Shown here piece after piece: positions 20,370 through 28,500 of a stretch of DNA of 33,624 nucleotides. Source of the stretch: a virus. Below the pieces are notes generated by a model, which saw nothing but the letters and a program-made list of their open reading frames with translations, ran no database searches and was not told where the DNA came from. The DNA lies in IMG/VR virus record IMGVR_UViG_3300048834_000264, positions 1 to 33,624 of that record, one strand, 5' to 3'. The translations under genes were made by a program, and so were the position numbers. Positions within the stretch are counted from its first letter, which is position 1. Each line of letters begins with the position of its first letter.

Positions 20370-20521
20370 CCGCGCCCAGCCGGCGCCAGGACAAAGCCGA
20401 GCGCCAGCGCGATCAGCGCCGTGTCGCCCGCGAGCGGCAGGCCCGCGAGGATCTGCGCCGACGCGCCGAGGTGCCCGAGCTGCTGCCGGTGCGCGATGAA
20501 GAGGGGCGTTACAGGCCCTGA
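20354..20521 (+). CDS. Small very basic protein, unknown function
   Basis: 55 residues, extremely Arg-rich and helical (RRQDKAERQRDQRRVARERQ), no Cys, no membrane segment. The start overlaps the Rz1 end by 16 bases in a different frame. It is the last plus-strand frame before the convergent minus-strand region. It could be a real late gene or an accidental frame; I do not recognise a family. Confidence 0.45.
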   Translation: MARPVTAPSRRQDKAERQRDQRRVARERQAREDLRRRAEVPELLPVRDEEGRYRP

Positions 20522-20716
20522 ACGAACACCGTTGCGCACGAAGCGCTTGATCCAGTGCCAGTACGCCTCCAGCGTTCGGCGGCTGTAGTGGCGCACGGCA
20601 ATGGCCTCGGCCACCAGCTGCTGCAGCCTTTTGGGTTGGGAGGCCTGGTGGTCGCATAACGCCGGTGCGGCGTCGTGCGTCATGGTGGCTGGTGCTTGTG
20701 GATCAAGGACTTGCAT
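20520..20716 (-). pseudogene. 5' remnant of an IntI-like tyrosine recombinase
   Basis: From ATG 20716, with GGAGG six bases upstream, the frame reads about 61 residues resembling the N-terminal SAM-like domain of integron integrases: PKRLQQLVAEAIAVRHYS at residues 28-45, RT at 47-48, AY at 51-52 and WHWIKRFVR at 53-61. Homology stops near 20534; the frame runs on only opposite the Rz1 region. The core domain and catalytic Arg-His-Arg-Tyr residues are absent. It lies where temperate phages often keep int, but its motif is of the integron type. It is probably not an active enzyme. Confidence 0.7.
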
Positions 20717-20771
20717 GTGGCCCTCCGGTGTTATCCGACGTGGGGTGTTCCCGAATTTGTGTTGAACAACA

Positions 20772-20981
20772 TCACTCGCTGATTCCGCGCAGGGTTTCCA
20801 GCGCCTGAACCATCGCAACCACGTCGCCGCTCATGACAGCGCGGTCGGCGGCTTGCAAGTCCTGTTCAATGAACATGGCTCCAATCGCTCCAGCGGGGCC
20901 TATTTCCTTGTAGTAGCCCAGCACCTTGCGAACCCGGGCCATTTCCTTCGGCAGTGCGTCTGCCAGTGTTTCAGTCGTCAT
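20772..20981 (-). CDS. Small cassette protein, unknown function
   Basis: 69 residues, helical: ADALPKEMARVRKVLGYYKE, then GAIGAMFIEQDLQAADRAVM and VAMVQALETLRGISE. I recognise a recurrent small phage/bacterial family without known role. It starts inside the end of the upstream zinc-ribbon gene (11-base overlap) and stops just before a half attC box (GTTCAAC in the gene direction). It is the second gene of the last cassette. Confidence 0.7.
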   Translation of the reverse strand: MTTETLADALPKEMARVRKVLGYYKEIGPAGAIGAMFIEQDLQAADRAVMSGDVVAMVQALETLRGISE

Positions 20982-21123
20982 CGTCTTCTTCCTCGGTTGA
21001 GTCTTCAATGTCGAACACCTCGCCACAGGCGGCGCAGCGTTCAAGGTTCTCGAAAGGCTGCACGCCGTCCCAGCCGCTGTCGTACTGGTAGTGCACCTTG
21101 CAGCCACACTTTGGGCAGGCCAT
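20971..21123 (-). CDS. Mini zinc-ribbon protein
   Basis: 50 residues with two Cys pairs (Cys3/Cys6 and Cys30/Cys33) in MACPKCGCK and ERCAACGEVF, and an acidic tail ending in four Asp. GGAG lies 9 bases before the ATG. The leader from the attC R' box to the ATG is nearly identical to that of the 21489-21707 gene. Probably a small zinc-binding adaptor; target unknown. Confidence 0.75.
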   Translation of the reverse strand: MACPKCGCKVHYQYDSGWDGVQPFENLERCAACGEVFDIEDSTEEEDDDD

Positions 21124-21143
21124 GTCTTTCTCCGGTGTGGGTT

Positions 21144-21203
21144 GTTCAACTCTGCGCGCCAGTCGGACCGCCTTCGGCGGCCCGCTGCGCTTCGGTGTTC
21201 GGC
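21144..21203 (-). repeat. attC-like site 12
   Basis: In the gene direction: R'' GCCGAAC (21203-21197), near-palindrome with a 9-bp stem (21164-21172 with 21176-21184, one mismatch), and R' GTTGAAC (21150-21144), which fits GTTRRRY. Nearly identical core to sites 6 and 10. Confidence 0.75.
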
Positions 21204-21207
21204 AGCA

Positions 21208-21411
21208 TCACTGCGGCGCCAGTTCTGGCATCGTGTTGCAAGTGAAGTGGCACACTGGGCACTCCTGTCCCCAGCCCCCCGCCGTCATTAATCCGTGTCC
21301 GTTTGGGCACATGCCGCTGCGGATCAAAAAATCGCTTTCGATGTAGCGTTCTTTGTCGCCTGGCTGTCCTCCAAGCACATCGATTCGGTCGGGGTCTGCT
21401 CTTTCAATCAT
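21208..21411 (-). CDS. Small cassette protein with zinc-binding pattern
   Basis: 67 residues with a likely zinc site: Cys35 and His39 (GMCPNGHG) with Cys51 and Cys54 (QECPVCHF). The N-terminus has ERADPDRIDVLGGQPGDKER. The leader contains GAAAGGA before the ATG. The gene stops 5 bases before attC site 12. Function unknown. Confidence 0.72.
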   Translation of the reverse strand: MIERADPDRIDVLGGQPGDKERYIESDFLIRSGMCPNGHGLMTAGGWGQECPVCHFTCNTMPELAPQ

Positions 21412-21431
21412 GGTGGTCCTTTCTCGGCAGT

Positions 21432-21484
21432 GCCGAACTGGTTAATCGACCGCACGCGGTGCGGCGGTCATCGTGGTGTTGAAC
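21432..21484 (-). repeat. attC-like site 11
   Basis: R'' GTTCAAC (21484-21478) fits RYYYAAC. R' GTTCGGC (21438-21432) is off consensus at one base. The centre has an imperfect GC-rich hairpin (GACCG at 21448 with CGGTC at 21465). Weaker than its neighbours but correctly placed between two small genes. Confidence 0.6.
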
Positions 21485-21488
21485 AACA

Positions 21489-21707
21489 TCAATACTCGAC
21501 GCGGGCAAGCTCGAACTCATGGCCGCAGTATTCGCAGGTCAACTCGTGGCCTTCCAGCTTGTCCCATGCATTCGTGAAGATGTGCCTAGATATGTAGTTC
21601 TCGCTGTCGTGCTCCGGGCCTGAAATGTCGTTGGCCTCGTTGCACTTCGGGCAGTCAACGTACAGCGACCAATCAAGCTGGGCCACTGGCTGGGTAAGTT
21701 GTGTCAT
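21489..21707 (-). CDS. Small zinc-ribbon protein
   Basis: 72 residues. Two CxxC pairs, Cys19/Cys22 (VDCPKCNEAND) and Cys58/Cys61 (LTCEYCGHEFE), flank an acidic linker. This is a typical small phage zinc ribbon. The leader has ACACCGGAGAAAGAC before the ATG, shared with the 20971-21123 gene. The stop lies 5 bases before site 11. Confidence 0.75.
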   Translation of the reverse strand: MTQLTQPVAQLDWSLYVDCPKCNEANDISGPEHDSENYISRHIFTNAWDKLEGHELTCEYCGHEFELARVEY

Positions 21708-21727
21708 GTCTTTCTCCGGTGTAGGTT

Positions 21728-21787
21728 GTTCAACTCTGCGCGCCAGTCGGACCGCCTACGGCGGTCCGCTGCGCTTCTGTGTTCGAT
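21728..21787 (-). repeat. attC-like site 10
   Basis: R'' ATCGAAC (21787-21781), a perfect 9-bp central stem (21748-21756 with 21760-21768, loop TAC), and R' GTTGAAC (21734-21728). The core is the same as in site 6 over more than 35 bases. Confidence 0.78.
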
Positions 21788-22080
21788 GACTCGCGCCCGA
21801 TCCGTGCCCGCGCCTCCCAGGCGTGGCCGTTATCGGTCCAGCTTGCAGCCATCGCGCCGCAGCAAAGCGAGCACCACCGGTAGCTCATAAGCGCGCCGTC
21901 AAACACTGCCGCCAGAAGCCTAACGCGCTCTCCGGGTGTGATTTCTTGGCGGCACATGCCGCAGGTGCCACCCCTGCGCGCCGTACCGATCTTGTCTTTC
22001 AGAACCCGGTCGCCCGGCGATCCGAAGTCACCTTCAAACGGGTTGACCTTCAAGCATTCAGCTTCGTCAAAAATCATCAT
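21730..22080 (-). CDS. Cys-rich cassette protein
   Basis: 116 residues. A zinc-finger-like set: Cys40/Cys43 (GGTCGMCRQEI) and Cys70 with Cys73 or Cys74 (YRWCSLCCGA). The last 18 residues (SSNTEAQRTAVGGPTGAQ) are encoded by the attC site itself, as seen in many cassette proteins. The start ATG sits just downstream of the R' box of site 9, with GGAG overlapping that box. Function unknown. Confidence 0.75.
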   Translation of the reverse strand: MMIFDEAECLKVNPFEGDFGSPGDRVLKDKIGTARRGGTCGMCRQEITPGERVRLLAAVFDGALMSYRWCSLCCGAMAASWTDNGHAWEARARIGRESSNTEAQRTAVGGPTGAQS

Positions 22081-22132
22081 CGAACTCTCCTATCGAGCGG
22101 ACCCGTTGGGCCGCTCATTGCCAGTGTTAGGC
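22079..22132 (-). repeat. attC-like site 9
   Basis: R'' GCCTAAC (22132-22126) matches the consensus perfectly. R' GTTCGAT (22085-22079) is one base off. A 6-bp central stem (22095-22100 with 22111-22116) is present. Confidence 0.72.
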
Positions 22133-22305
22133 GCTATCCTGAATTCGCACCAAAACGCAATGATTGCAGGTGGCATCATCCACGCTGATACAGCGCTGGT
22201 TGATTCGGCCAGCCTGCGTGCGCAGTCCTCGCACCCATCACGCCAGCCTTCCTCGTCGTCACCAACACCAGCGCACCGCGCAACGTCATTCGGTAGCGTT
22301 ACCAT
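22090..22305 (-). CDS. Small cassette protein
   Basis: 71 residues. The central GWRDGCEDCARRLAE carries a CxxC pair (Cys25/Cys28), followed by a hydrophobic patch (VSAWMMPPAIIAFWCEF). The C-terminal APNTGNERPNGSAR is encoded within attC site 9. GGAGG stands in the leader just after the R' box of site 8. Not a recognised family. Confidence 0.68.
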   Translation of the reverse strand: MVTLPNDVARCAGVGDDEEGWRDGCEDCARRLAESTSAVSAWMMPPAIIAFWCEFRIAPNTGNERPNGSAR

Positions 22306-22320
22306 TTCTCAATCCTCCGC

Positions 22321-22380
22321 GCCTAACCCGGCGCTCGTTCGGATGGGCCTGACGGCCCGCCGCAAAGCTCGGCGTTAGCG
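22321..22380 (-). repeat. attC-like site 8
   Basis: R'' CGCTAAC (22380-22374), central stem GGGCC/GGCCC (22345-22349 with 22354-22358), and R' GTTAGGC (22327-22321), a perfect consensus. One of the clearest attC boxes in the array. Confidence 0.78.
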
Positions 22381-22611
22381 GGCACGGATCGCATCTGCGC
22401 ATTCGTGGCATGCAGACCACGGCGTTCCGTTATTCGGGCCCTGCACGGCTGCGGCATGAACTTCGCAAGCAAGCGCGCAAGACATCCGTTCCTGTTTTAC
22501 CGCCGCCTCCCATGCACGGGCAGCGATTGAGTAGAAAATAGATTCTCTCCTCATGTTGGACCCCGCTCCCGCCTTCTTCATTTCTCTCACCCACCACTCA
22601 TCAAACGTCAT
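22375..22611 (-). CDS. Small phage-type cassette protein (FDxWW family)
   Basis: 78 residues. It starts FDEWWVREM, with AARAWEAAVKQERMSCALAC in the middle and SACHECADAIRAR at the end; Cys45/Cys49 and Cys68/Cys71 may bind metal. The layout resembles the 23009-23305 protein (FDSWW, then REAWIAATKIERERC). I place the start at 22611, where GAGG is 9 bases upstream; ATG 22620 would add MNE and is also possible. Function unknown. Confidence 0.7.
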   Translation of the reverse strand: MTFDEWWVREMKKAGAGSNMRRESIFYSIAARAWEAAVKQERMSCALACEVHAAAVQGPNNGTPWSACHECADAIRAR

Positions 22612-22635
22612 TTCGTTCATCCTCGCGGGCTTGCC

Positions 22636-22695
22636 CGCTAACAGGGCGTTCAAGCCGAACCCGCTTCGCGGGTCGGCTTAACTTCGGTGTTGACC
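22636..22695 (-). repeat. attC-like site 7 (aadA-like architecture)
   Basis: A 13-base arm (22652-22664) pairs with 22668-22679 around loop TTC, leaving one unpaired base (22658), the type of extrahelical base that guides attC recombination. Outer boxes in the gene direction are GGTCAAC (22695-22689) and GTTAGCG (22642-22636). From memory, the string GTTCAAGCCGA and the CGCTTCGCG centre resemble attC sites of aadA cassettes. Confidence 0.82.
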
Positions 22696-22955
22696 GGCAC
22701 GTCGGGCACCCAGCGAGGGATGGTGTACATGTCGGTGTAGGGCTCGTTGAAAAACGGGTCTTCTGCGCTGTAGCAAGCGCCGGCTGCAATGGTTTCTGGT
22801 GCGTCGAGTGGTCCGCAGCAGCGCGGCTCTTCGCTGACGTCGAATCGGTCGGTGTCGAGTTCGGGCGGTGAGTAGCTGTGGCTCACGCACTCGAACCAGT
22901 AGCCGCGCGCCAGCATCTTGGCGTTGTCCATCAATATGGCGACAGTTTTGGTCAT
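22650..22955 (-). CDS. Small cassette protein
   Basis: 101 residues. It begins MTKTVAILMDNAKMLARGYW and has a Cys pair in EEPRCCGPLD and an acidic, aromatic-rich centre (NEPYTDMYTIPRWVPDVP). The C-terminal NTEVKPTREAGSA is encoded within attC site 7. The leader has GAAAG but no strong ribosome site. Not recognised. Confidence 0.7.
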   Translation of the reverse strand: MTKTVAILMDNAKMLARGYWFECVSHSYSPPELDTDRFDVSEEPRCCGPLDAPETIAAGACYSAEDPFFNEPYTDMYTIPRWVPDVPVNTEVKPTREAGSA

Positions 22956-22980
22956 GGTTTTCTTTCTTCGGCTGGGTTCC

Positions 22981-23039
22981 GGTCAACTAGGCGCGCCAGT
23001 CGGACCGCCTACGGCGGTCCGCTGCGCTCTGTGTTGGGC
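22981..23039 (-). repeat. attC-like site 6
   Basis: R'' GCCCAAC (23039-23033) matches the consensus. A perfect 9-bp stem (23001-23009 with 23013-23021, loop TAC) follows. R' GTTGACC (22987-22981) is one base off. Shares its core with sites 10 and 12 and its R'' flank with site 3. Confidence 0.78.
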
Positions 23040-23305
23040 TGCTCAAACCACCGTTCTCCCATGCGCAAGGCTTCCGCGCAGTCTTCTGCCCCGCAGGCTT
23101 CGGCGTCATGAAAGTCCGCGTCCTCTGTGTCGGTTTTTGCCAGTGATGCCGCTTTTTCTGCGTGGTATGCCTGCACCCGTTCGCAAACCTTTGTGCACCG
23201 CTCCCGTTCAATCTTTGTTGCTGCAATCCAAGCTTCGCGGGCGTCGATCTTCACAATCGTAGGAATCATGTGGCGTATGCCTTCCCACCAGCTATCAAAG
23301 TCCAT
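23009..23305 (-). CDS. Small phage-type cassette protein (FDxWW family)
   Basis: 98 residues. FDSWWEGIRHMIP at the N-terminus, then a helical REAWIAATKIERERCTKVCE and an acidic tail with Cys71/Cys76. It shares the FDxWW start and the ExAW..A....ER..C...CE pattern with the 22375-22611 protein. The last residues (QPNTERSGPP) lie within attC site 6, where the stop codon sits in the loop. GGAG in the leader follows the R' box of site 5. Confidence 0.73.
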   Translation of the reverse strand: MDFDSWWEGIRHMIPTIVKIDAREAWIAATKIERERCTKVCERVQAYHAEKAASLAKTDTEDADFHDAEACGAEDCAEALRMGERWFEQPNTERSGPP

Positions 23306-23326
23306 ATTGATCCTCTCCGGGCATCA

Positions 23327-23368
23327 GCCCAACTCTTAAATCGAACCGACGCCGGGGCGAGGTTCATC
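23327..23368 (-). repeat. attC-like site 5, short or degenerate
   Basis: R' GTTGGGC (23333-23327) is perfect. The R'' candidate GATGAAC (23368-23362) is poor, and the site is only about 42 bases with a 5-bp stem (23343-23347 with 23361-23365). It overlaps the end of the 23336-23617 gene. Probably a partly eroded or very short attC. Confidence 0.5.
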
Positions 23369-23617
23369 GGTGGGGTTGAGCTTCACGTCTGCCAGTTCGT
23401 AGTCAAACGACTCCAGCACAGTGCCCTGAGCGATGGCTCGGCTCATGCCGAGCACCTGGCCCCAGCGAACACCCTCCACCTCGCAAGGCCACTCGCCATC
23501 GTGTTTTGCTTCGTCACGGTAGTACTCAAGGTCTGCAAGTGCTGCGGCCTTCGCCTCTTCGGCTGTGTCGTGAAACAGAATGCCGTTGTCGTCGGTGAAG
23601 CTGAAAAATGGTTTCAT
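23336..23617 (-). CDS. Small phage-type cassette protein
   Basis: 93 residues: MKPFFSFTDDNGILFHDTAE, then AAALADLEYYRDEAKHDGEW and a strand-rich second half with EGVRWGQVLGMSRAIAQGTV. This is a known style of small early phage protein, without a named role. GGAG 8 bases before the ATG. The leader begins GTTGGGCTGATGCCC, shared with the next cassette downstream. Confidence 0.72.
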   Translation of the reverse strand: MKPFFSFTDDNGILFHDTAEEAKAAALADLEYYRDEAKHDGEWPCEVEGVRWGQVLGMSRAIAQGTVLESFDYELADVKLNPTDEPRPGVGSI

Positions 23618-23636
23618 CGTGTTCTCCAGGGCATCA

Positions 23637-23721
23637 GCCCAACTCTGTGCTCCAGCGAACTGCCAGAGCGTGGTTTCAATCGGTGCGCCCAGCGGGCAGT
23701 CGCTGAGCGTCGGTGTTCTGT
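23637..23721 (-). repeat. attC-like site 4
   Basis: The longest site, 85 bases. R' GTTGGGC (23643-23637) is perfect; R'' ACAGAAC (23721-23715) is weak. Inner arms CTCCAGCGAACTGCC (23650-23664) and GGCAGTCGCTGAG (23695-23707) pair with bulges. It encodes the C-terminal tail of the methyltransferase. Confidence 0.68.
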
Positions 23722-24620
23722 GGCATCAGCAGGCGCCACGCTTCAGCCGCACATCGCGGCACCTGTCCGTTTCCAATGGCTTTAAGTCGGTCCACCCGAG
23801 CGGCCACCCCATCAGCCACTCGACCCACGTTGGGTTCAGTGCTCCACCAACGGCGTTCGGCAATTGCTCCCCCTTCGCTCCACCGCCTCTTTCTGCGTAG
23901 CTCTTGGCGTTCGGGTGCTTGAAATCCCGGGCAGCCGGCGTCGGCCATTTCGATCGAGCGGAAACCGCCTCGATCAGCGTCCCGCCCTCTCTGCTCTTGC
24001 GCGGTGTCACGCGCCCGCCCTTCGTGCCCAGACTGCTGGTCAGTGTCGGCCAGAGCCTGACCGCCGTCGCCAGTCCGTCGCCGCTCTTGGCACTCGCGCC
24101 TCTGCGGTTGTTGTTCCCGCACACTGTTGGCGTTGGCCACAAGCCAGAATCTGTCGCGCTGGTGAGGCGCCCCAACGTCGGCAGCTCCCAGCACTGTCCA
24201 GCGGCAGTCATACCCGAGCGTGGCCAGGTCACTGAGGACTCGTCCGAGTCCCCGAGTAAGCAGGGCTGGGCTGTTTTCCACGAAGACGAAGCGGGGTCGA
24301 ACTTCGCCCACGATGCGCGCCATGTGCGCCCACATTCCCGATCGAGCGCCGTCGATGCCGGCGCCCTTTCCGGCGACGCTGATGTCCTGGCACGGGAAGC
24401 CGCCAGAAACCACATCAACAAGGCCTCGCCATGGTCGTCCGTCAAAGGTGCGAACGTCATCCCAAACCGGGAAGGCCGGGAGAAGGCCGTCATTCTGTCG
24501 GGCGGCAAGTACGCTTGCGGGGTAGGGTTCCCACTCGACGGCGCAAACGGTGCGCCATCCGAGCAGGTGGCCGCCGAGAATTCCTCCACCAGCGCCCGCG
24601 AAAAGAGCCAGCTCATTCAT
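23676..24620 (-). CDS. Orphan DNA cytosine-5 methyltransferase
   Basis: 314 residues of the C5-methyltransferase family: motif I FAGAGGG (7-13), motif IV GGFPCQDIS with catalytic Cys77, motif VI VENS (114-117), motif VIII QRDRFWLVA (154-162), and the C-terminal VDRLKAIGNGQVP (motif X). It transfers a methyl group from S-adenosylmethionine to cytosine. No restriction enzyme gene is nearby, so protection of phage DNA from host restriction is a reasonable inference. The last 13 residues (QNTDAQRLPAGRTD region) come from attC site 4. It is the only large gene of the array. Confidence 0.88.
   Translation of the reverse strand: MNELALFAGAGGGILGGHLLGWRTVCAVEWEPYPASVLAARQNDGLLPAFPVWDDVRTFDGRPWRGLVDVVSGGFPCQDISVAGKGAGIDGARSGMWAHMARIVGEVRPRFVFVENSPALLTRGLGRVLSDLATLGYDCRWTVLGAADVGAPHQRDRFWLVANANSVREQQPQRRECQERRRTGDGGQALADTDQQSGHEGRARDTAQEQRGRDADRGGFRSIEMADAGCPGFQAPERQELRRKRRWSEGGAIAERRWWSTEPNVGRVADGVAARVDRLKAIGNGQVPRCAAEAWRLLMPQNTDAQRLPAGRTD
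23726..24616 (-). CDS. Second open frame overprinted on the methyltransferase
   Basis: A 296-codon frame on the same strand, shifted by one, starting 4 bases after the methyltransferase start (ATGAATGA). Its predicted protein has MSWLFSRALVEEFSAATCSD, FDPASSSWKTAQPCLLGDS, LWPTPTVCGNNNRRGASAKS and NPTWVEWLMGWPLGWTDLKP. I recognise these strings from a phage hypothetical-protein family. In such high-GC DNA a long second frame alone means little, so this may only mirror methyltransferase conservation. Translation is unproven. Confidence 0.35.
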   Translation of the reverse strand: MSWLFSRALVEEFSAATCSDGAPFAPSSGNPTPQAYLPPDRMTAFSRPSRFGMTFAPLTDDHGEALLMWFLAASRARTSASPERAPASTALDRECGRTWRASWAKFDPASSSWKTAQPCLLGDSDESSVTWPRSGMTAAGQCWELPTLGRLTSATDSGLWPTPTVCGNNNRRGASAKSGDGLATAVRLWPTLTSSLGTKGGRVTPRKSREGGTLIEAVSARSKWPTPAARDFKHPNAKSYAERGGGAKGEQLPNAVGGALNPTWVEWLMGWPLGWTDLKPLETDRCRDVRLKRGAC

Positions 24621-24951
24621 CGTTTCTTTCTTGGTTAGGTGCCACAGAACTCAACGCGCCAGTCGGACGCTCCGCGCCGCTGCGCTCTGTGTTGGGCCAC
24701 AGCATGGCGCCGCGCAGGGCTTCAAGCACCGCCTCTCGGTGCGTCTTGCCTGAGCTGTCTCGCCACCAACCGTCGTAGTCCCGCATGCCGCAGGGCGCCG
24801 TAACGATGATGTACCAGTCGTCTTTTTTACTGTCGCGTGCAATACCGATTGCGCGACCCTTGTAGGTGTAGTGTCCTTCTGTGGAGCACTCCCACGACGT
24901 GCGCACGCGGGGTGCCCCAACTCTGCAATCCATCGAATTCGCTTCGCTCAT
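24613..24951 (-). CDS. Small cassette protein
   Basis: 112 residues. A folded-looking centre TSWECSTEGHYTYKGRAIGI, then KKDDWYIIVTAPCGMRDYDG and WWRDSSGKTHREAVLEALRG. The last 28 residues (from LWPNTERSGAERPTG on) read straight through attC site 3 and end over the methyltransferase start. ATG 24951 overlaps the upstream stop (ATGA). Function unknown. Confidence 0.72.
   Translation of the reverse strand: MSEANSMDCRVGAPRVRTSWECSTEGHYTYKGRAIGIARDSKKDDWYIIVTAPCGMRDYDGWWRDSSGKTHREAVLEALRGAMLWPNTERSGAERPTGALSSVAPNQERNDE
24649..24697 (-). repeat. attC-like site 3
   Basis: R'' GCCCAAC (24697-24691) and R' GTTGAGT (24655-24649) both match the consensus. Arms GCGCCAGTCGGACGC and CGCCGCTGCGC are imperfectly palindromic. 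It shares the GCGCTCTGTGTTGGGC flank (plus strand) with site 6. Confidence 0.76.
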
Positions 24952-24972
24952 TGCTGATCTCCGGTGTTATGC
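24915..24972 (-). repeat. attC-like site 2
   Basis: R'' GCATAAC (24972-24966), R' GTTGGGG (24921-24915), both near consensus. Inner arms pair as GCAAT/ATTGC and CGAA/TTCG. The site contains the end of one gene and the start of the next. Confidence 0.62.
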
Positions 24973-25262
24973 CAAGTGGCAATCTCTTCCGGCGTGGCCT
25001 TCCGGTCGTGGTCGCAGTGCTTGCAGCACATCCGCGAATACTCCTTCGGCCAGCTCTTGCGAAACGCCAGCTCGTGCTCTGCGCCGTTGAGACAGTCGGC
25101 TTTGCTGGGCTCGTAATCGAAGCTGATGTGGGTTTCAAACACAAACGTCTTGTCGCACTCGCTGCATGTGTGTTCGTGCTTCACGCCTTCGGCGTAGCCG
25201 TGGCCGTCGTCGTGGCAAACCTCTTGATCGGCCCCGCAGTAGGGGCATTGCATGTCGCTCAC
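24948..25262 (-). CDS. Multi-CxxC zinc-binding cassette protein
   Basis: 104 residues with several metal pairs: Cys6/Cys9 (MQCPYCGADQE), Cys33/Cys36 (HTCSECDKTF) and Cys79/Cys80 with Cys83 (RMCCKHCDHD). The first half is a classic zinc ribbon. It is the first cassette of the array; the leader follows the R' box GTTATGC of site 1. Its last codons (HNTGDQQ) enter site 2. Role unknown, perhaps a nucleic-acid-binding adaptor. Confidence 0.75.
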   Translation of the reverse strand: MSDMQCPYCGADQEVCHDDGHGYAEGVKHEHTCSECDKTFVFETHISFDYEPSKADCLNGAEHELAFRKSWPKEYSRMCCKHCDHDRKATPEEIATWHNTGDQQ

Positions 25263-25286
25263 TGGTTTCCTTTCGCGCCCGTCAGG

Positions 25287-25340
25287 GCATAACTCTGCGC
25301 CCGACCGGACCCGCTGGCCCGGTCAACTTCGGTGTTCACG
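25287..25340 (-). repeat. attC-like site 1, upstream border of the array
   Basis: R' GTTATGC (25293-25287) with arms GACCGG/CCGGTC (25303-25308 with 25319-25324). The R'' side CGTGAAC (25340-25334) is poor and contains the stop of the DUF4224 gene. This marks the junction between the phage leftward operon and the first cassette. Confidence 0.65.
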
Positions 25341-25611
25341 CGGCCTTCCGGCCAAAAAGCACCACCAGCCCTGCGCGGTTACCCGTGGGTGCCGGCTGGG
25401 GTTGATGGATTGCCTGAGCATCGTTGGCGGCAGGGCGCTGGCCAGCCAGCACTTTCTCGGCATGGGCGCGCATCACCAGAGGCCGGCCGTTGGGCTTGCG
25501 TGTGACGTGCAGGCCCAGGTCTTCCAGGTAGCGGGCCTTGGCGGCGTTCTGCCGAAGGCCAGCGCACATGGAGTCAATCTCTTCGTCGGTCAGGTCCGGT
25601 CGGGTGTTCAT
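25336..25611 (-). CDS. DUF4224 family protein
   Basis: 91 residues. TDEEIDSMCAGLRQNAAKAR, then YLEDLGLHVTRKPNGRPLVM, the DUF4224 signature. In temperate phages this family usually lies beside the integrase gene; here its neighbour is the cassette array. The start overlaps the upstream stop by 4 bases. It may assist integration or excision, an inference from context. Confidence 0.82.
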   Translation of the reverse strand: MNTRPDLTDEEIDSMCAGLRQNAAKARYLEDLGLHVTRKPNGRPLVMRAHAEKVLAGQRPAANDAQAIHQPQPAPTGNRAGLVVLFGRKAA

Positions 25612-26162
25612 GCGGCCTTCCTTTCCGTGCGCAGCGGCTTACCCAGCATCGCGTCCAGATCCACCGTGGCGTGGCCGTTCTTGATGCGTGCGCCGGTCAG
25701 CCGGATGGCTTCTTCGTAGACGCTGCGTGCCACGCTGGCCCGCTGCTGCTCGTGCAGGCGGATCACGTCGCGCAGGTGCTCGATGGCCTGACCGCTCAGG
25801 CCCATGCGGCCAGTGCGCTGGTAGCGTGCGGCGGTCTCGATCAGGTCCTGCTCGGCCAGGTGGCACGCGGGCATCACCTCATCGCGCATCACGCCCAGCG
25901 TGCCGGCCATGGTCTGCGCGATGTTGTTCAGGTTGACCAGGTCGGACCACTCCGTCAGCCGCGCATGGCCGCGGGTGAATGCGTCCAGCGCGGTGAGTTC
26001 GCGCATCATCAACTGGTCGCGCGCCTGCTCTGATGTGATGGCCGCGCCCGCCATGGCGTGCTCGATGGTGTCCAGGTCGGTGCGCCACACCTTGCGCGAC
26101 ACGGGTGGTTTGCTGTGCCCGCGCTGGGCGCGCTTTTGTGCTCGTCGCTGTTCGCGGTTCAT
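25608..26162 (-). CDS. Phage protein of unknown function
   Basis: 184 residues. A very basic N-terminus (NREQRRAQKRAQRGHSKPPV) is followed by a long helical body (QARDQLMMRELTALDAFTRG, HLRDVIRLHEQQRASVARSV). The KRAQ-type basic start suggests nucleic acid contact. It overlaps both neighbours by 4 bases, so it belongs to the leftward operon. No named family recognised. Confidence 0.75.
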   Translation of the reverse strand: MNREQRRAQKRAQRGHSKPPVSRKVWRTDLDTIEHAMAGAAITSEQARDQLMMRELTALDAFTRGHARLTEWSDLVNLNNIAQTMAGTLGVMRDEVMPACHLAEQDLIETAARYQRTGRMGLSGQAIEHLRDVIRLHEQQRASVARSVYEEAIRLTGARIKNGHATVDLDAMLGKPLRTERKAA

Positions 26163-26764
26163 GCCTGCATCCCCCTGCTCGGCAGCGCATAAGCCGCCAT
26201 CGCACCGGGTCGGCCGTCGAAGGGCCGCAGCTCGGTGCCGGTGTAGATGCCGGCCATCACGTCCACCTGGCGCGGCTTGGCCACGTGCTCGGCCGCCTTC
26301 AGGTGTGCCGCAGGGCGGCTGTAGCCGGCGTCCTTGCTTTGCAGCGTGCCGCGCTGCACCAGCAGGATCAGCGCCGGCCGCAGCATGGTCTGTGGCAGGC
26401 CGGTGGCGGCGCCCAGGTGGCCAATGCGCATGGGCGCGTTTTTGCGCTTGTCGATGGTCTCGCAGATCAGCGCCTCCACCTCCACGGCCGACAGGGCCGG
26501 CTTGGGTGCCGGTGTTGCGGGCTTGGGTTCCTGCGCCGGTTCTTCTGGGGTGTTCGGTTTTCGGCCCGTGATGCGGTAGTGCTTGACGCGGCTGTCCGTG
26601 GCGTCGGCAGTGGTCTGCACCACCCAGGTCTTGCGCAGCTCCTTGATCTGGCCCAGCGCTGCGCCCTTGCTGATGCGCATGCGCTTGCTGATGGCGGTTG
26701 CGTCCAGGCCGGGCGCTGGCTCGGCGCTCAGCAGGGCGGCGATTTTTTTGCGCATGGTGGTCAT
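26159..26764 (-). CDS. Winged-helix DNA-binding protein
   Basis: 201 residues. The N-terminus (LDATAISKRMRISKGAALGQ, residues about 18-38) is a helix-turn-helix. A Pro-rich linker (TPEEPAQEPKPATPAPKP) and a second helical domain (APMRIGHLGAATGLPQTMLR) with helix-turn-helix character follow. The start at 26764 overlaps the previous stop and has AAGGGG upstream. Probably a transcription regulator of the early region. Confidence 0.72.
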   Translation of the reverse strand: MTTMRKKIAALLSAEPAPGLDATAISKRMRISKGAALGQIKELRKTWVVQTTADATDSRVKHYRITGRKPNTPEEPAQEPKPATPAPKPALSAVEVEALICETIDKRKNAPMRIGHLGAATGLPQTMLRPALILLVQRGTLQSKDAGYSRPAAHLKAAEHVAKPRQVDVMAGIYTGTELRPFDGRPGAMAAYALPSRGMQA

Positions 26765-27120
26765 GCCGTGGCCCCTTCCATTTCCACCCGCTGGGCCGGG
26801 TTGGCCATATGCAGCCACTCGGCCACGGTCATCACCGGGAAGTTCAGGCCCTTGGCCAGGCGCACTTCGGCCAGCGCGCCGCGGCTGGCGCCGAAGTTCG
26901 GCAGCGTGGCCACGGCGTTGCTGCGCGCCATCATCAGCGTGATGTCGCGGCGCATGTGGTCGATCCACGGGGTGTCGTCCTGCGGCAGGCTGTCCTCGGC
27001 CGGGTTGGTGACGATGTAGCCGGCGGCGCGCAGCTGTGCGGCTGCCGCGTGGAATGCCGGGTGGTTGAACTCGGGCAGGCCACTCATGGGGCCAGCCAGG
27101 TACAGGCGGTGCTGGCTCAC
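26761..27120 (-). CDS. DUF4406 protein, nucleoside deoxyribosyltransferase-like
   Basis: 119 residues. LYLAGPMSGLPEFNHPAF at the N-terminus, then GYIVTNPAEDSL, WIDHMRRDITLMMARSNAVA and LPNFGASRGALAEVRLAKGL. This is the DUF4406 family, with the fold of nucleoside 2-deoxyribosyltransferases. It may act on nucleotides, but the substrate is unknown. The ends overlap both neighbours by 4 bases. Confidence 0.85.
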   Translation of the reverse strand: MSQHRLYLAGPMSGLPEFNHPAFHAAAAQLRAAGYIVTNPAEDSLPQDDTPWIDHMRRDITLMMARSNAVATLPNFGASRGALAEVRLAKGLNFPVMTVAEWLHMANPAQRVEMEGATA

Positions 27121-27350
27121 TTCAGCACCTCCAGCGGAACCTCTGGGCCAAACTTCACCGGCTGGCCTTGTGCAAACAGGTAGGCCGCGCTGCTGAGCAT
27201 GGTGCGCGCCACCATGGCCGTGTCGGTGTTGCCCAGCAGAGAGTCGGCGCCGTGGGCCATGCCGCCGCTGCAGGCGCTGGTGCGCACCGTGGGAGGTTCG
27301 CCGGCCAGGCCGGGCACGATGTCAATGGTGATCAAGGGTGCAGTGCTCAT
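27117..27350 (-). CDS. Small early protein, unknown
   Basis: 77 residues: STAPLITIDIVPGLAGEPPT, then GADSLLGNTDTAMVARTMLS and AYLFAQGQPVKFGPEVPLEV. GAGG lies about 7 bases before the ATG. It overlaps the DUF4406 start. Not recognised. Confidence 0.68.
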   Translation of the reverse strand: MSTAPLITIDIVPGLAGEPPTVRTSACSGGMAHGADSLLGNTDTAMVARTMLSSAAYLFAQGQPVKFGPEVPLEVLK

Positions 27351-27360
27351 GGTGTGAACC

Positions 27361-27669
27361 TCAACGGATGACCAGGCCGACGATGCGGTCGGCGTTGGGG
27401 ATGACGGCGGCCAGGAAGACCGCCACACCGGCCGCGTAGGCCAGCCAGAAGCGGCGCGTGGCGCTGGCGTCGCGCTCGTGCGGCTGCACGTCGTTGGCCG
27501 GGTGGCCTTCGCAGCAGAAGTCGGTGCAGGTGGCCAGGCCATCGCACATGCCTGGCCGGCAGCGGCGCTGCTCAATCGGGCCGTGAACGATGCGCAGCGG
27601 TGCCTGCAGCTGGCTGGCGTCAACGCGGTGCAGCAGCAGTGGTTCGTGGGTGAGGCTTTGGTGGTTCAT
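27361..27669 (-). CDS. Cys-rich small membrane protein
   Basis: 102 residues. The centre has several Cys (RCRPGMCDGLATCTDFCCEG) and the C-terminus one membrane helix (about 74-92, WLAYAAGVAVFLAAVIPNA). The type recurs in proteobacterial phages. The start overlaps the upstream stop (ATGA). Role unknown; the membrane anchor puts the Cys-rich part on one face of the inner membrane. Confidence 0.72.
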   Translation of the reverse strand: MNHQSLTHEPLLLHRVDASQLQAPLRIVHGPIEQRRCRPGMCDGLATCTDFCCEGHPANDVQPHERDASATRRFWLAYAAGVAVFLAAVIPNADRIVGLVIR

Positions 27670-28049
27670 TTCTCCACCTCCGCAACCACCACAGCAGGCC
27701 GGCACACCAGATCACCGTCGTGCGTCCACAGCACCAGCGCACCGGGTCCAAGCTCGGCCTGGCAGAGGGTTTCGGCGGCGCGCTGCAGTCGGGTGTCGGC
27801 CGCGTCCAGCTCGGAGTTGATGCGTTCGATGCGGCTGGCGTCGTCGGCGTCGCGCTCGGACAGGTGGATCAGTGTGAAGAACGCAGCCACGGCCAGCACG
27901 GCGGTGACGGTGGGGGAAACAGCGCTGCGCCAGCCGCTGCGGCGGGCGTGATCGGCCACGAAGTCGTCCCAGTCTTGATCGGGCAGGGGGCGCTTGTCGG
28001 TTCTCTCGATTGGCGATGGCTCATCGGCGGGTCTGATAGCACGGTTCAT
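27666..28049 (-). CDS. Membrane protein with coiled coil
   Basis: 127 residues. An acidic N-terminus with DQDWDDFVADHARRSGWRSA, one membrane helix (about 44-62, VSPTVTAVLAVAAFFTLIHL), then a heptad-rich segment (DASRIERINSELDAADTRLQ). The stop overlaps the next start. Function unknown. Confidence 0.7.
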   Translation of the reverse strand: MNRAIRPADEPSPIERTDKRPLPDQDWDDFVADHARRSGWRSAVSPTVTAVLAVAAFFTLIHLSERDADDASRIERINSELDAADTRLQRAAETLCQAELGPGALVLWTHDGDLVCRPAVVVAEVEK

Positions 28050-28180
28050 ACGGCACCGCCCTTCTGTGCCGCCCAGGCCGCACGCATGGCGCGCAGGTGC
28101 TGACCTGCCGAACGGTTGATGGTGATGGTGATGCGCTGCATGGCCATCGCGCACAGGTGGTCGAGTTCGGCGCGGGTCAT
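28046..28180 (-). CDS. 44-residue early protein
   Basis: A short helical protein (TRAELDHLCAMAMQRITITI, then AGQHLRAMRAAWAAQKGGAV). It overlaps the gene before and after by ATGA, which supports real translation. Not recognised. Confidence 0.65.
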   Translation of the reverse strand: MTRAELDHLCAMAMQRITITINRSAGQHLRAMRAAWAAQKGGAV

Positions 28181-28428
28181 GCGGAACCGCCTTCAAGCGC
28201 CACGATGTCACCCGAAATGGTCAGGCCGATGCGTGCGCCCGGGTTTTCCTCGGTGATGTCGTGGATGCGCTGCCACATGTTGGAGCAGTCTTCGGCGCAC
28301 TGCACATCGCGCTGCAGGCGCTCGATTTCTTCGGCCTGCACCGCGCACAGTGCGCGCAGGTGGTCAAGTTCCCAGCGCTCCAGCCGGCGCTGGATGCTGA
28401 TCGTTTCCTTGGTGTGTTGCTGTGCCAT
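28177..28428 (-). CDS. First gene of the leftward operon, unknown
   Basis: 83 residues: MAQQHTKETISIQRRLERWE, a long helix (LRALCAVQAEEIERLQRDVQ), then IGLTISGDIVALEGG at the end. I start it at 28428 because GGAGGG stands 5 bases upstream; ATG 28440 would add MEGQ and bury that site in the gene. PL lies about 25 bases upstream of this start. Function unknown. Confidence 0.7.
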   Translation of the reverse strand: MAQQHTKETISIQRRLERWELDHLRALCAVQAEEIERLQRDVQCAEDCSNMWQRIHDITEENPGARIGLTISGDIVALEGGSA

Positions 28429-28459
28429 CTGGCCCTCCATTCTGGGTTGCGATGGCGTG

Positions 28460-28500
28460 ATCTTAGGGAATACCTAACAGCGTGTCAAGGCATTGCCTAA
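28460..28500 (-). promoter_or_regulatory. PL promoter with paired operators
   Basis: On the minus strand, -35 TTGACA (28488-28483), 17-base spacer, -10 TAAGAT (28465-28460). Operator 1, TTAGGGAATACCTAA (28463-28477), covers spacer and -10; operator 2, CAAGGCATTGCCTAA (28486-28500), covers the -35. Centres are 23 bases apart, the same as at PR. Confidence 0.8.

Follow-up and report, generated by a model that had tools for sequence, protein, structure and literature searches.

An integron-type array of reversed gene cassettes in a phage contig

Integrons have been described in phages before: among 10,705 genomes, three complete integrons and 17 clusters of attC sites lacking integron integrases (CALINs) were reported, mostly captured from host-type integrons, and phage attC sites recombine with IntI1 in the assay of the same study (Qi et al. 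2023, PMC9892861). In ordinary integrons, the choice of the attC strand sets the orientation of a cassette such that its gene can be read from the promoter Pc (PMC8946536). Here we describe an array of twelve gene cassettes in the IMG/VR record IMGVR_UViG_3300048834_000264, one whole linear viral contig of 33,624 bases that may be incomplete (hereafter the window; all positions count from its first base). Very probably, the array is an integron that belongs to a distinct lineage carried by phages, with reversed cassettes that would be read from a phage operon. A preliminary description of this DNA had held that integron cassettes in a phage would be new, which is too strong in view of the integrons and CALINs reported in 2023. 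What looks new is the phage-specific lineage and its reversed polarity; no description of such a lineage was found in the literature searched (open-access papers, no preprints).

attC sites, attI-like site, and truncated intI

Rfam at the gathering threshold gave no match in the window; hence, we built a covariance model from known attC sites. The training set comprised 11 attC sites of class 1 integrons from four plasmids only, chosen to avoid circularity, and the whole 33.6-kb window was scanned on both strands with filters off. The top 12 matches are the twelve palindromic sites at 21144–25341, all on the + strand, with scores from 57.8 down to 12.9 bits. The next match is partial and reaches 12.5 bits, and the best match on the – strand anywhere in the window scores 9.6 bits. 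For attC 4, 6, and 8, scores are listed for both strands, and the + strand prevails each time. The site at 22636–22695 holds a 35-nucleotide core that is unchanged in a resistance-integron attC. By BLAST alone, this site matches the attC of aadA11, aadA13, and other class 1 attC sites (85–89%), and in all four inspected matches of 22638–22699, the resistance genes and intI1 are placed as for the + orientation.

Between neighboring sites, the right box of the first and the left box of the second are reverse complements at 103 of 108 positions (per cassette, out of 9: 9, 8, 9, 9, 9, 9, 9, 9, 7, 9, 8, and 8). Shuffled pairings have a mean of 64 and a maximum of 89, and 103 was reached in none of 20,000 shuffles. 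This closed box pattern is what circular cassettes leave behind. Within one site, the boxes pair at background level (64/108). Because closure is symmetric and pairing within a site is at background, the orientation is settled by the covariance model, the matches to resistance cassettes, and where intI lies. The placement of intI and attI together fits the + orientation, as do the unpaired L'' bases. The twelve palindromic sites are integron attC sites, pointing in the + direction. With more than the two integron-type attC sites that define an integron cassette array or CALIN, and with complementary outer boxes, the locus belongs to this group. The integron-type array within a phage that the preliminary description had proposed is thereby confirmed, and the covariance-model check that it had named came out in favor of attC.

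Left of the array, we found a remnant of intI and an attI-like site, both overlooked in the preliminary description. The remnant shares 72% amino acid and ∼80% nucleotide identity with the complete IntI of a Hydrogenophaga contig (L011), and positions 20537–21202 of the window are 85% identical in nucleotides to the phage contig L016. The attI-like block is conserved upstream of intI in L011, L016, and a further phage contig, L015. Homology with L011 and L015 stops at 20764, at the attI core box, and the attI-like site closes with the left box of attC 1 at 9 of 9 positions. Judged from the conserved block, a putative attI lies beside the 5' end of intI, and the order of intI (–), attI, and attC array (+) is the canonical integron geometry. 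The integron-type integrase gene of a complete integron is present in the relatives and cut to ∼61 codons in the window, which, as far as the sequence tells, is an integron with a truncated intI. The features are as follows (ORF, open reading frame).

20534–20716, – strand: truncated intI, of which the first ∼61 codons remain (PF13495 above cut-off; TIGR02249 E 1.5e-5)
∼20717–20764, + strand: attI-like site, predicted cut G/TT at 20761/20762
20762–21197, + strand: cassette 1; the same cassette adjoins attI in L016
20971–21123 and 20772–20981, both – strand: genes of cassette 1, for a zinc-ribbon protein and a small protein (84% and 92% to L016 in amino acids)
21144–21203, + strand: attC 1, 24.1 bits
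21208–21411, – strand: gene of cassette 2 (21198–21478), ORF with a ribosome-binding site beside the left box
21432–21484, + strand: attC 2, 18.1 bits
21489–21707, – strand: gene of cassette 3 (21479–21781), CxxC protein
21728–21787, + strand: attC 3, 20.0 bits
21793–22080, – strand: gene of cassette 4 (21782–22126); the cassette alone, without flanks, occurs in phage L026 (77% in nucleotides, 86% in amino acids)
22079–22132, + strand: attC 4, 37.5 bits on +, 7.7 on –
22150–22305, – strand: gene of cassette 5 (22127–22374), in L173 (88% in amino acids), homology beginning at the cassette edge
22321–22380, + strand: attC 5, 18.5 bits
22375–22611, – strand: gene of cassette 6 (22375–22689), ORF
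22636–22695, + strand: attC 6, with the 35-nucleotide core, 57.8 bits on +, 8.6 on –
22650–22955, – strand: gene of cassette 7 (22690–23033), ORF, codon score 8.5 versus –13.6 on the other strand
22981–23039, + strand: attC 7, 20.1 bits, 93% identity to an attC of L016
23009–23305, – strand: gene of cassette 8 (23034–23375), ORF with a ribosome-binding site
23327–23381, + strand: attC 8, 22.7 bits on +, 7.3 on –
23336–23617, – strand: gene of cassette 9 (23376–23715), codon score 12.0 versus –7.0, distant homologues in other viral contigs
23637–23721, + strand: attC 9, 25.4 bits
23676–24620, – strand: gene of cassette 10 (23716–24691), C5-cytosine DNA methyltransferase (PHROG 363, E 3.3e-74)
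24644–24697, + strand: attC 10, 21.2 bits
24613–24951, – strand: gene of cassette 11 (24692–24966), ORF
24915–24972, + strand: attC 11, 24.7 bits, weak fold (DNA fold –6.5 kcal/mol)
24948–25262, – strand: gene of cassette 12 (24967–25334), CxxC/Lar-like protein (codon score 7.0; weak Lar-family match)
25287–25341, + strand: attC 12, 12.9 bits, last site at the distal end, next to the phage early operon
25336–28440, – strand: leftward early operon, which would transcribe the array; its gene 25608–26162 is conserved in other phage contigs

Reversed cassettes and cassette exchange in a family of phages

The locus has many relatives. A common design of phage operon, reversed array, attI, intact intI, and usually a phage integrase recurs in at least 30 contigs of IMG/VR and in two bacterial contigs. 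In L015 (41 kb) and L016 (40 kb), the phage operon, reversed cassettes, attI, and intact intI stand in one row, as they do in L020 and others. A scan of IMG/VR with the intact IntI as the query returned 28 contigs, and a profile of 21 phage IntI yielded at least 572 candidate stretches, many of which may be other IntI. A phage integrase gene adjoins intI in nine of the ten other viral contigs tested, its place being taken by a portal gene in the tenth. The same arrangement is seen in the two bacterial contigs, together with a phage integrase and tRNA-Arg in L011 and with tail genes, a phage integrase, and tRNA-Val in L129.

The IntI of the relatives score 405–468 bits with TIGR02249 (cut-off 265), and their catalytic residues are intact: Arg-161, His-292, Arg-295, His-318, and Tyr-327 do not vary among 21 phage IntI. 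A tree of 82 IntI places 22 viral sequences (L011 counted as viral) and two sequences from bacterial genomes in one clade (99/90), separate from the remaining 57 cellular or plasmid IntI, with the IntI of viral contig L035 outside; a smaller tree agreed. One of the two bacterial sequences, L128 (7702–8700), adjoins RdgC, SbcC-like, and Gp3-like genes, and no attC was detected. A phage CALIN was also found in another phage lineage (57.8-kb contig; L008 10164–11062 and L009 381–1279). It has three attC sites and reversed cassettes and lies beside a probable phage integrase; intI was not found in this lineage.

The longest-ORF test of cassette polarity is noisy in GC-rich DNA, and codon scores and criteria based on start sites and ribosome-binding sites were therefore added. 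By the strict start-site criteria, viral arrays (49 loci) have 69 cassette genes antisense to attC versus three in sense, whereas the cellular arrays, chromosomal integrons of related bacteria that are mainly sense and served as controls, have eight versus 14 (p 9e-9). The longest ORF gives 33 antisense versus six sense genes in viral arrays and 13 versus 73 in cellular arrays (p 8e-14). The clear antisense calls are spread over ∼30 contigs; L035 and L196, which do not belong to the reversed type, supply the three sense calls. In 62 further viral loci, all 145 attC matches lie on the canonical strand relative to intI, so that it is the genes that are flipped. The window likewise departs from the canonical integron in having genes antisense to attC and no promoter-like site near attI.

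Two loci stand beside this pattern. In L035 (9977–12839), intI runs toward a sense cassette array, as in the inverted-intI type, and its IntI lies outside the phage clade. On the Comamonas testosteroni plasmid NZ_CP129673.1 (L004, 2621–4042), a class 1 integron contains the same cassette four times in tandem. The annotated ORF of this cassette (WP_143008597.1) runs antisense to attC, and the cassette could be a reversed one captured by a resistance integron.

Exchange of cassettes is seen between near-identical phages. On the intI side, L155 and L156 match at 99.9% over 4 kb, and on the far side at 99%, with common cassettes at ∼100%; L153, recovered from a third sample, shows no difference from L156 across 13.9 kb. 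Two cassettes of L155 (757 bp and about 616 bp) are absent from L156, and one cassette of L156 (451 bp) is absent from L155. These differences are whole cassettes, inserted exactly at G/TT. At the clearest junction, L155 reads ...CTCTGTC/GTTGGAGGG, and L156 reads ...CTCTGTC/GTTATGCGCC...GCTCTGC/GTTGGAGGG. L020 and L037 have no cassette in common at 97% identity on both flanks; their homology breaks off at R' at one end of the array and at the attI core at the opposite end. Related phages thus differ by whole cassettes with breakpoints at G/TT, the outcome that the preliminary description had set as a check.

Cassette cargo and phage setting

The cargo of the window includes the C5 methyltransferase and several CxxC proteins. 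Homologues of the methyltransferase of cassette 10 occur within the arrays of L138, L163, and L145, and other cassettes are found singly and in different neighborhoods elsewhere (cassette 1 in L016 beside attI, 4 in L026, and 5 in L173). A scan with the protein of cassette 8 (23009–23305) returned no viral relative, and that of cassette 9 (23336–23617) has solely distant homologues, on contigs without an attC match. The cassette ORFs of L015, L016, and the window (21730–25262) often run into the attC or attI box, which gives a recurrent C-terminal PNTE/PNTN tail.

Among 55 larger proteins of reversed cassettes are several DNA methyltransferases (C5, Dam, N6/N4, and D12), two Mom-like modification proteins, an exonuclease, a DHH phosphoesterase, and a PAPS-reductase-like protein. 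When 68 phage cassette proteins were compared with the sampled chromosomal integron loci, a single weak match (24% identity) was obtained, and the phage and chromosomal cassette pools therefore look separate.

The left two-thirds of the window carries phage head, tail, and lysis genes, all on the + strand, and the right part carries the leftward operon plus rightward replication genes. Recognized phage proteins are the portal, protease, major head protein, tail fiber J, endolysin, an O-like protein, and a DnaC-like loader. The array, with ∼13 small – strand genes, is bounded on the left by the late genes (+, last stop codon at 20521) and on the right by the early operon (leftward, –, from 25336). 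The slot given in the preliminary description and the assignment to a phage are thus borne out, whereas the epithet “temperate” lacks support for this contig: neither PF00589 nor phrog_1 matched a phage integrase in the window (linear, and possibly incomplete). The relatives, however, are temperate. Megablast with the window found no relative among GenBank phages, and a more sensitive search gave solely methyltransferase matches among those listed. Two contigs, L002 and L003, share the early gene 25608–26162, and an array was detected there in neither; L003 has one strong attC match (622–685, 39.6 bits).

Mechanism, rival explanations, and relation to known integrons

In relatives with an intact copy, intI lies at the far end of the phage operon, usually beside the phage's own integrase. 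IntI would recombine circular cassettes at attI and attC, cutting at G/TT, and cassettes would enter and leave at the 3' end of the phage operon. In a reversed cassette, the gene is antisense to its attC site, which lies upstream of the start codon. The array would be read from a phage promoter on the far side and not from Pc beside attI, with intI as the last gene of the same transcription unit. From such a promoter only reversed cassettes would be expressed, so that selection would keep them. IntI would probably be made during lytic growth and phage replication, when single-stranded attC DNA should be plentiful, and the benefit may be the swapping of counter-defense genes. In a consensus scan, a weak test, no promoter-like sites were found inside the array. 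More broadly, we lean toward the idea that temperate phages own an active integron lineage with switched polarity, in which the operon replaces Pc, shuffling is tied to phage replication, early genes are traded, and the cassettes form a pool distinct from the bacterial one.

Several observations weigh against a phage-specific integron lineage with reversed, operon-read cassettes. The window's own IntI is truncated, and the site-exact cassette differences come from relatives, none from its own phage. Promoter use is deduced from the consensus scan, in which a promoter-like site at 28488–28460 (–) belongs to a class no commoner than in shuffled sequence. Polarity is called from ORFs and ribosome-binding sites, and under the strict criteria roughly half of the cassettes gave no clear call. 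Two of 59 cellular IntI fall within the phage clade, L129 (a prophage) and L128 (a mobile element without detected attC). The tree is biased, its search having been seeded with phage IntI and its sampling covering one bacterial family and one class, and a wider sample could break the clade. Part of the IMG/VR contigs may be prophages in cellular assemblies.

The array could instead reflect the chance pick-up of a piece of ordinary chromosomal integron by a prophage, as described for Vibrio anguillarum phages (PMC9892861). The host group is rich in chromosomal integrons (close IntI in 161 of 401 genomes of the Hydrogenophaga contig's family), and the intI of the window is merely a truncated copy, yet we consider this origin very unlikely: the phage IntI form their own clade, dozens of phages have this layout in the same slot, the polarity is opposite to that of chromosomal arrays, and the cassette proteins have next to no match in the sampled chromosomal loci. 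According to the preliminary description, the cassettes are standard, with attC in the gene direction and genes read as in ordinary arrays. Its account of about twelve genes on one strand, each with an attC-like palindrome, stands, and the palindrome after every gene and the start and stop codons near the boxes do resemble ordinary cassettes. The R'' and R' boxes, however, were assigned to the gene direction (–), and 12 of 12 sites score on the opposite strand, in agreement with the L'' bases and the intI/attI position; standard cassettes are thus very improbable. A reading of the palindromes as transcription terminators, or as shared spacers that do not recombine, is hardly tenable, although several are GC-rich hairpins and attC sites may terminate transcription weakly (PMC9892861). 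The region holds no more terminator-like sites than shuffles do, the boxes close, an intI is associated, and for the family this reading is refuted by the exact gain and loss of cassettes at G/TT.

A different question is whether the window array is a frozen relic, an attC cluster with attI and no working intI that is kept for its useful genes. We give this reading, which is compatible with a phage integron family, slightly less than an even chance. The cut after ∼61 codons, the missing phage integrase, and the weakness of attC 11 and 12 speak for it, whereas the boxes still close almost perfectly, single cassettes are common to other phages, and IntI could act in trans. A single deletion may have removed both the remainder of intI and the phage integrase. 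The array is either such a relic or mobile only with IntI supplied in trans by a co-resident phage or the host.

With a phage-borne integron lineage, phages would gain a dedicated device for site-specific gene swapping, a route to mosaicism besides illegitimate or homologous recombination. Such a platform would trade anti-restriction and other early genes among phages and would explain the one-at-a-time exchange of counter-defense genes such as DNA methyltransferases. If attC can lie upstream of the gene when a cassette forms, models that add attC at the 3' end of a gene would be contradicted, and the origin of cassettes becomes directly testable. A viral cassette reservoir is also suggested, which may leak into class 1 integrons.

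The closest described systems are the phages of Qi et al. 2023 (PMC9892861), which likewise have an integron integrase, attI, and attC arrays and include DNA methyltransferase cassettes. The complete integrons of that study are host-type or class 1 integrons that phages captured, and the arrays it calls typical hold same-direction cassettes, whereas the phages described here have a phage-specific IntI clade, a fixed slot, reversed cassettes, and an intI that is codirectional with the cassette genes. The sedentary chromosomal integrons of Burkholderiales share the intI/attI/attC geometry and the structural type of attC. They differ in that their genes are mostly sense to attC, their IntI belong to other clades, and they lie outside any phage operon. 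With the class 1 integron (IntI1, aadA cassettes), the window has in common the unchanged core of one attC; the phage IntI, however, is 53% identical to IntI1, and there are no Pc-driven resistance cassettes. In inverted-intI integrons of the Treponema type, which viral contig L035 resembles, it is intI that is flipped, with the cassettes remaining sense to attC. In both the Treponema type and the phage integrons, intI and the cassette genes run in the same direction, but here intI keeps its place relative to attI and attC, and it is the cassette genes that are flipped.

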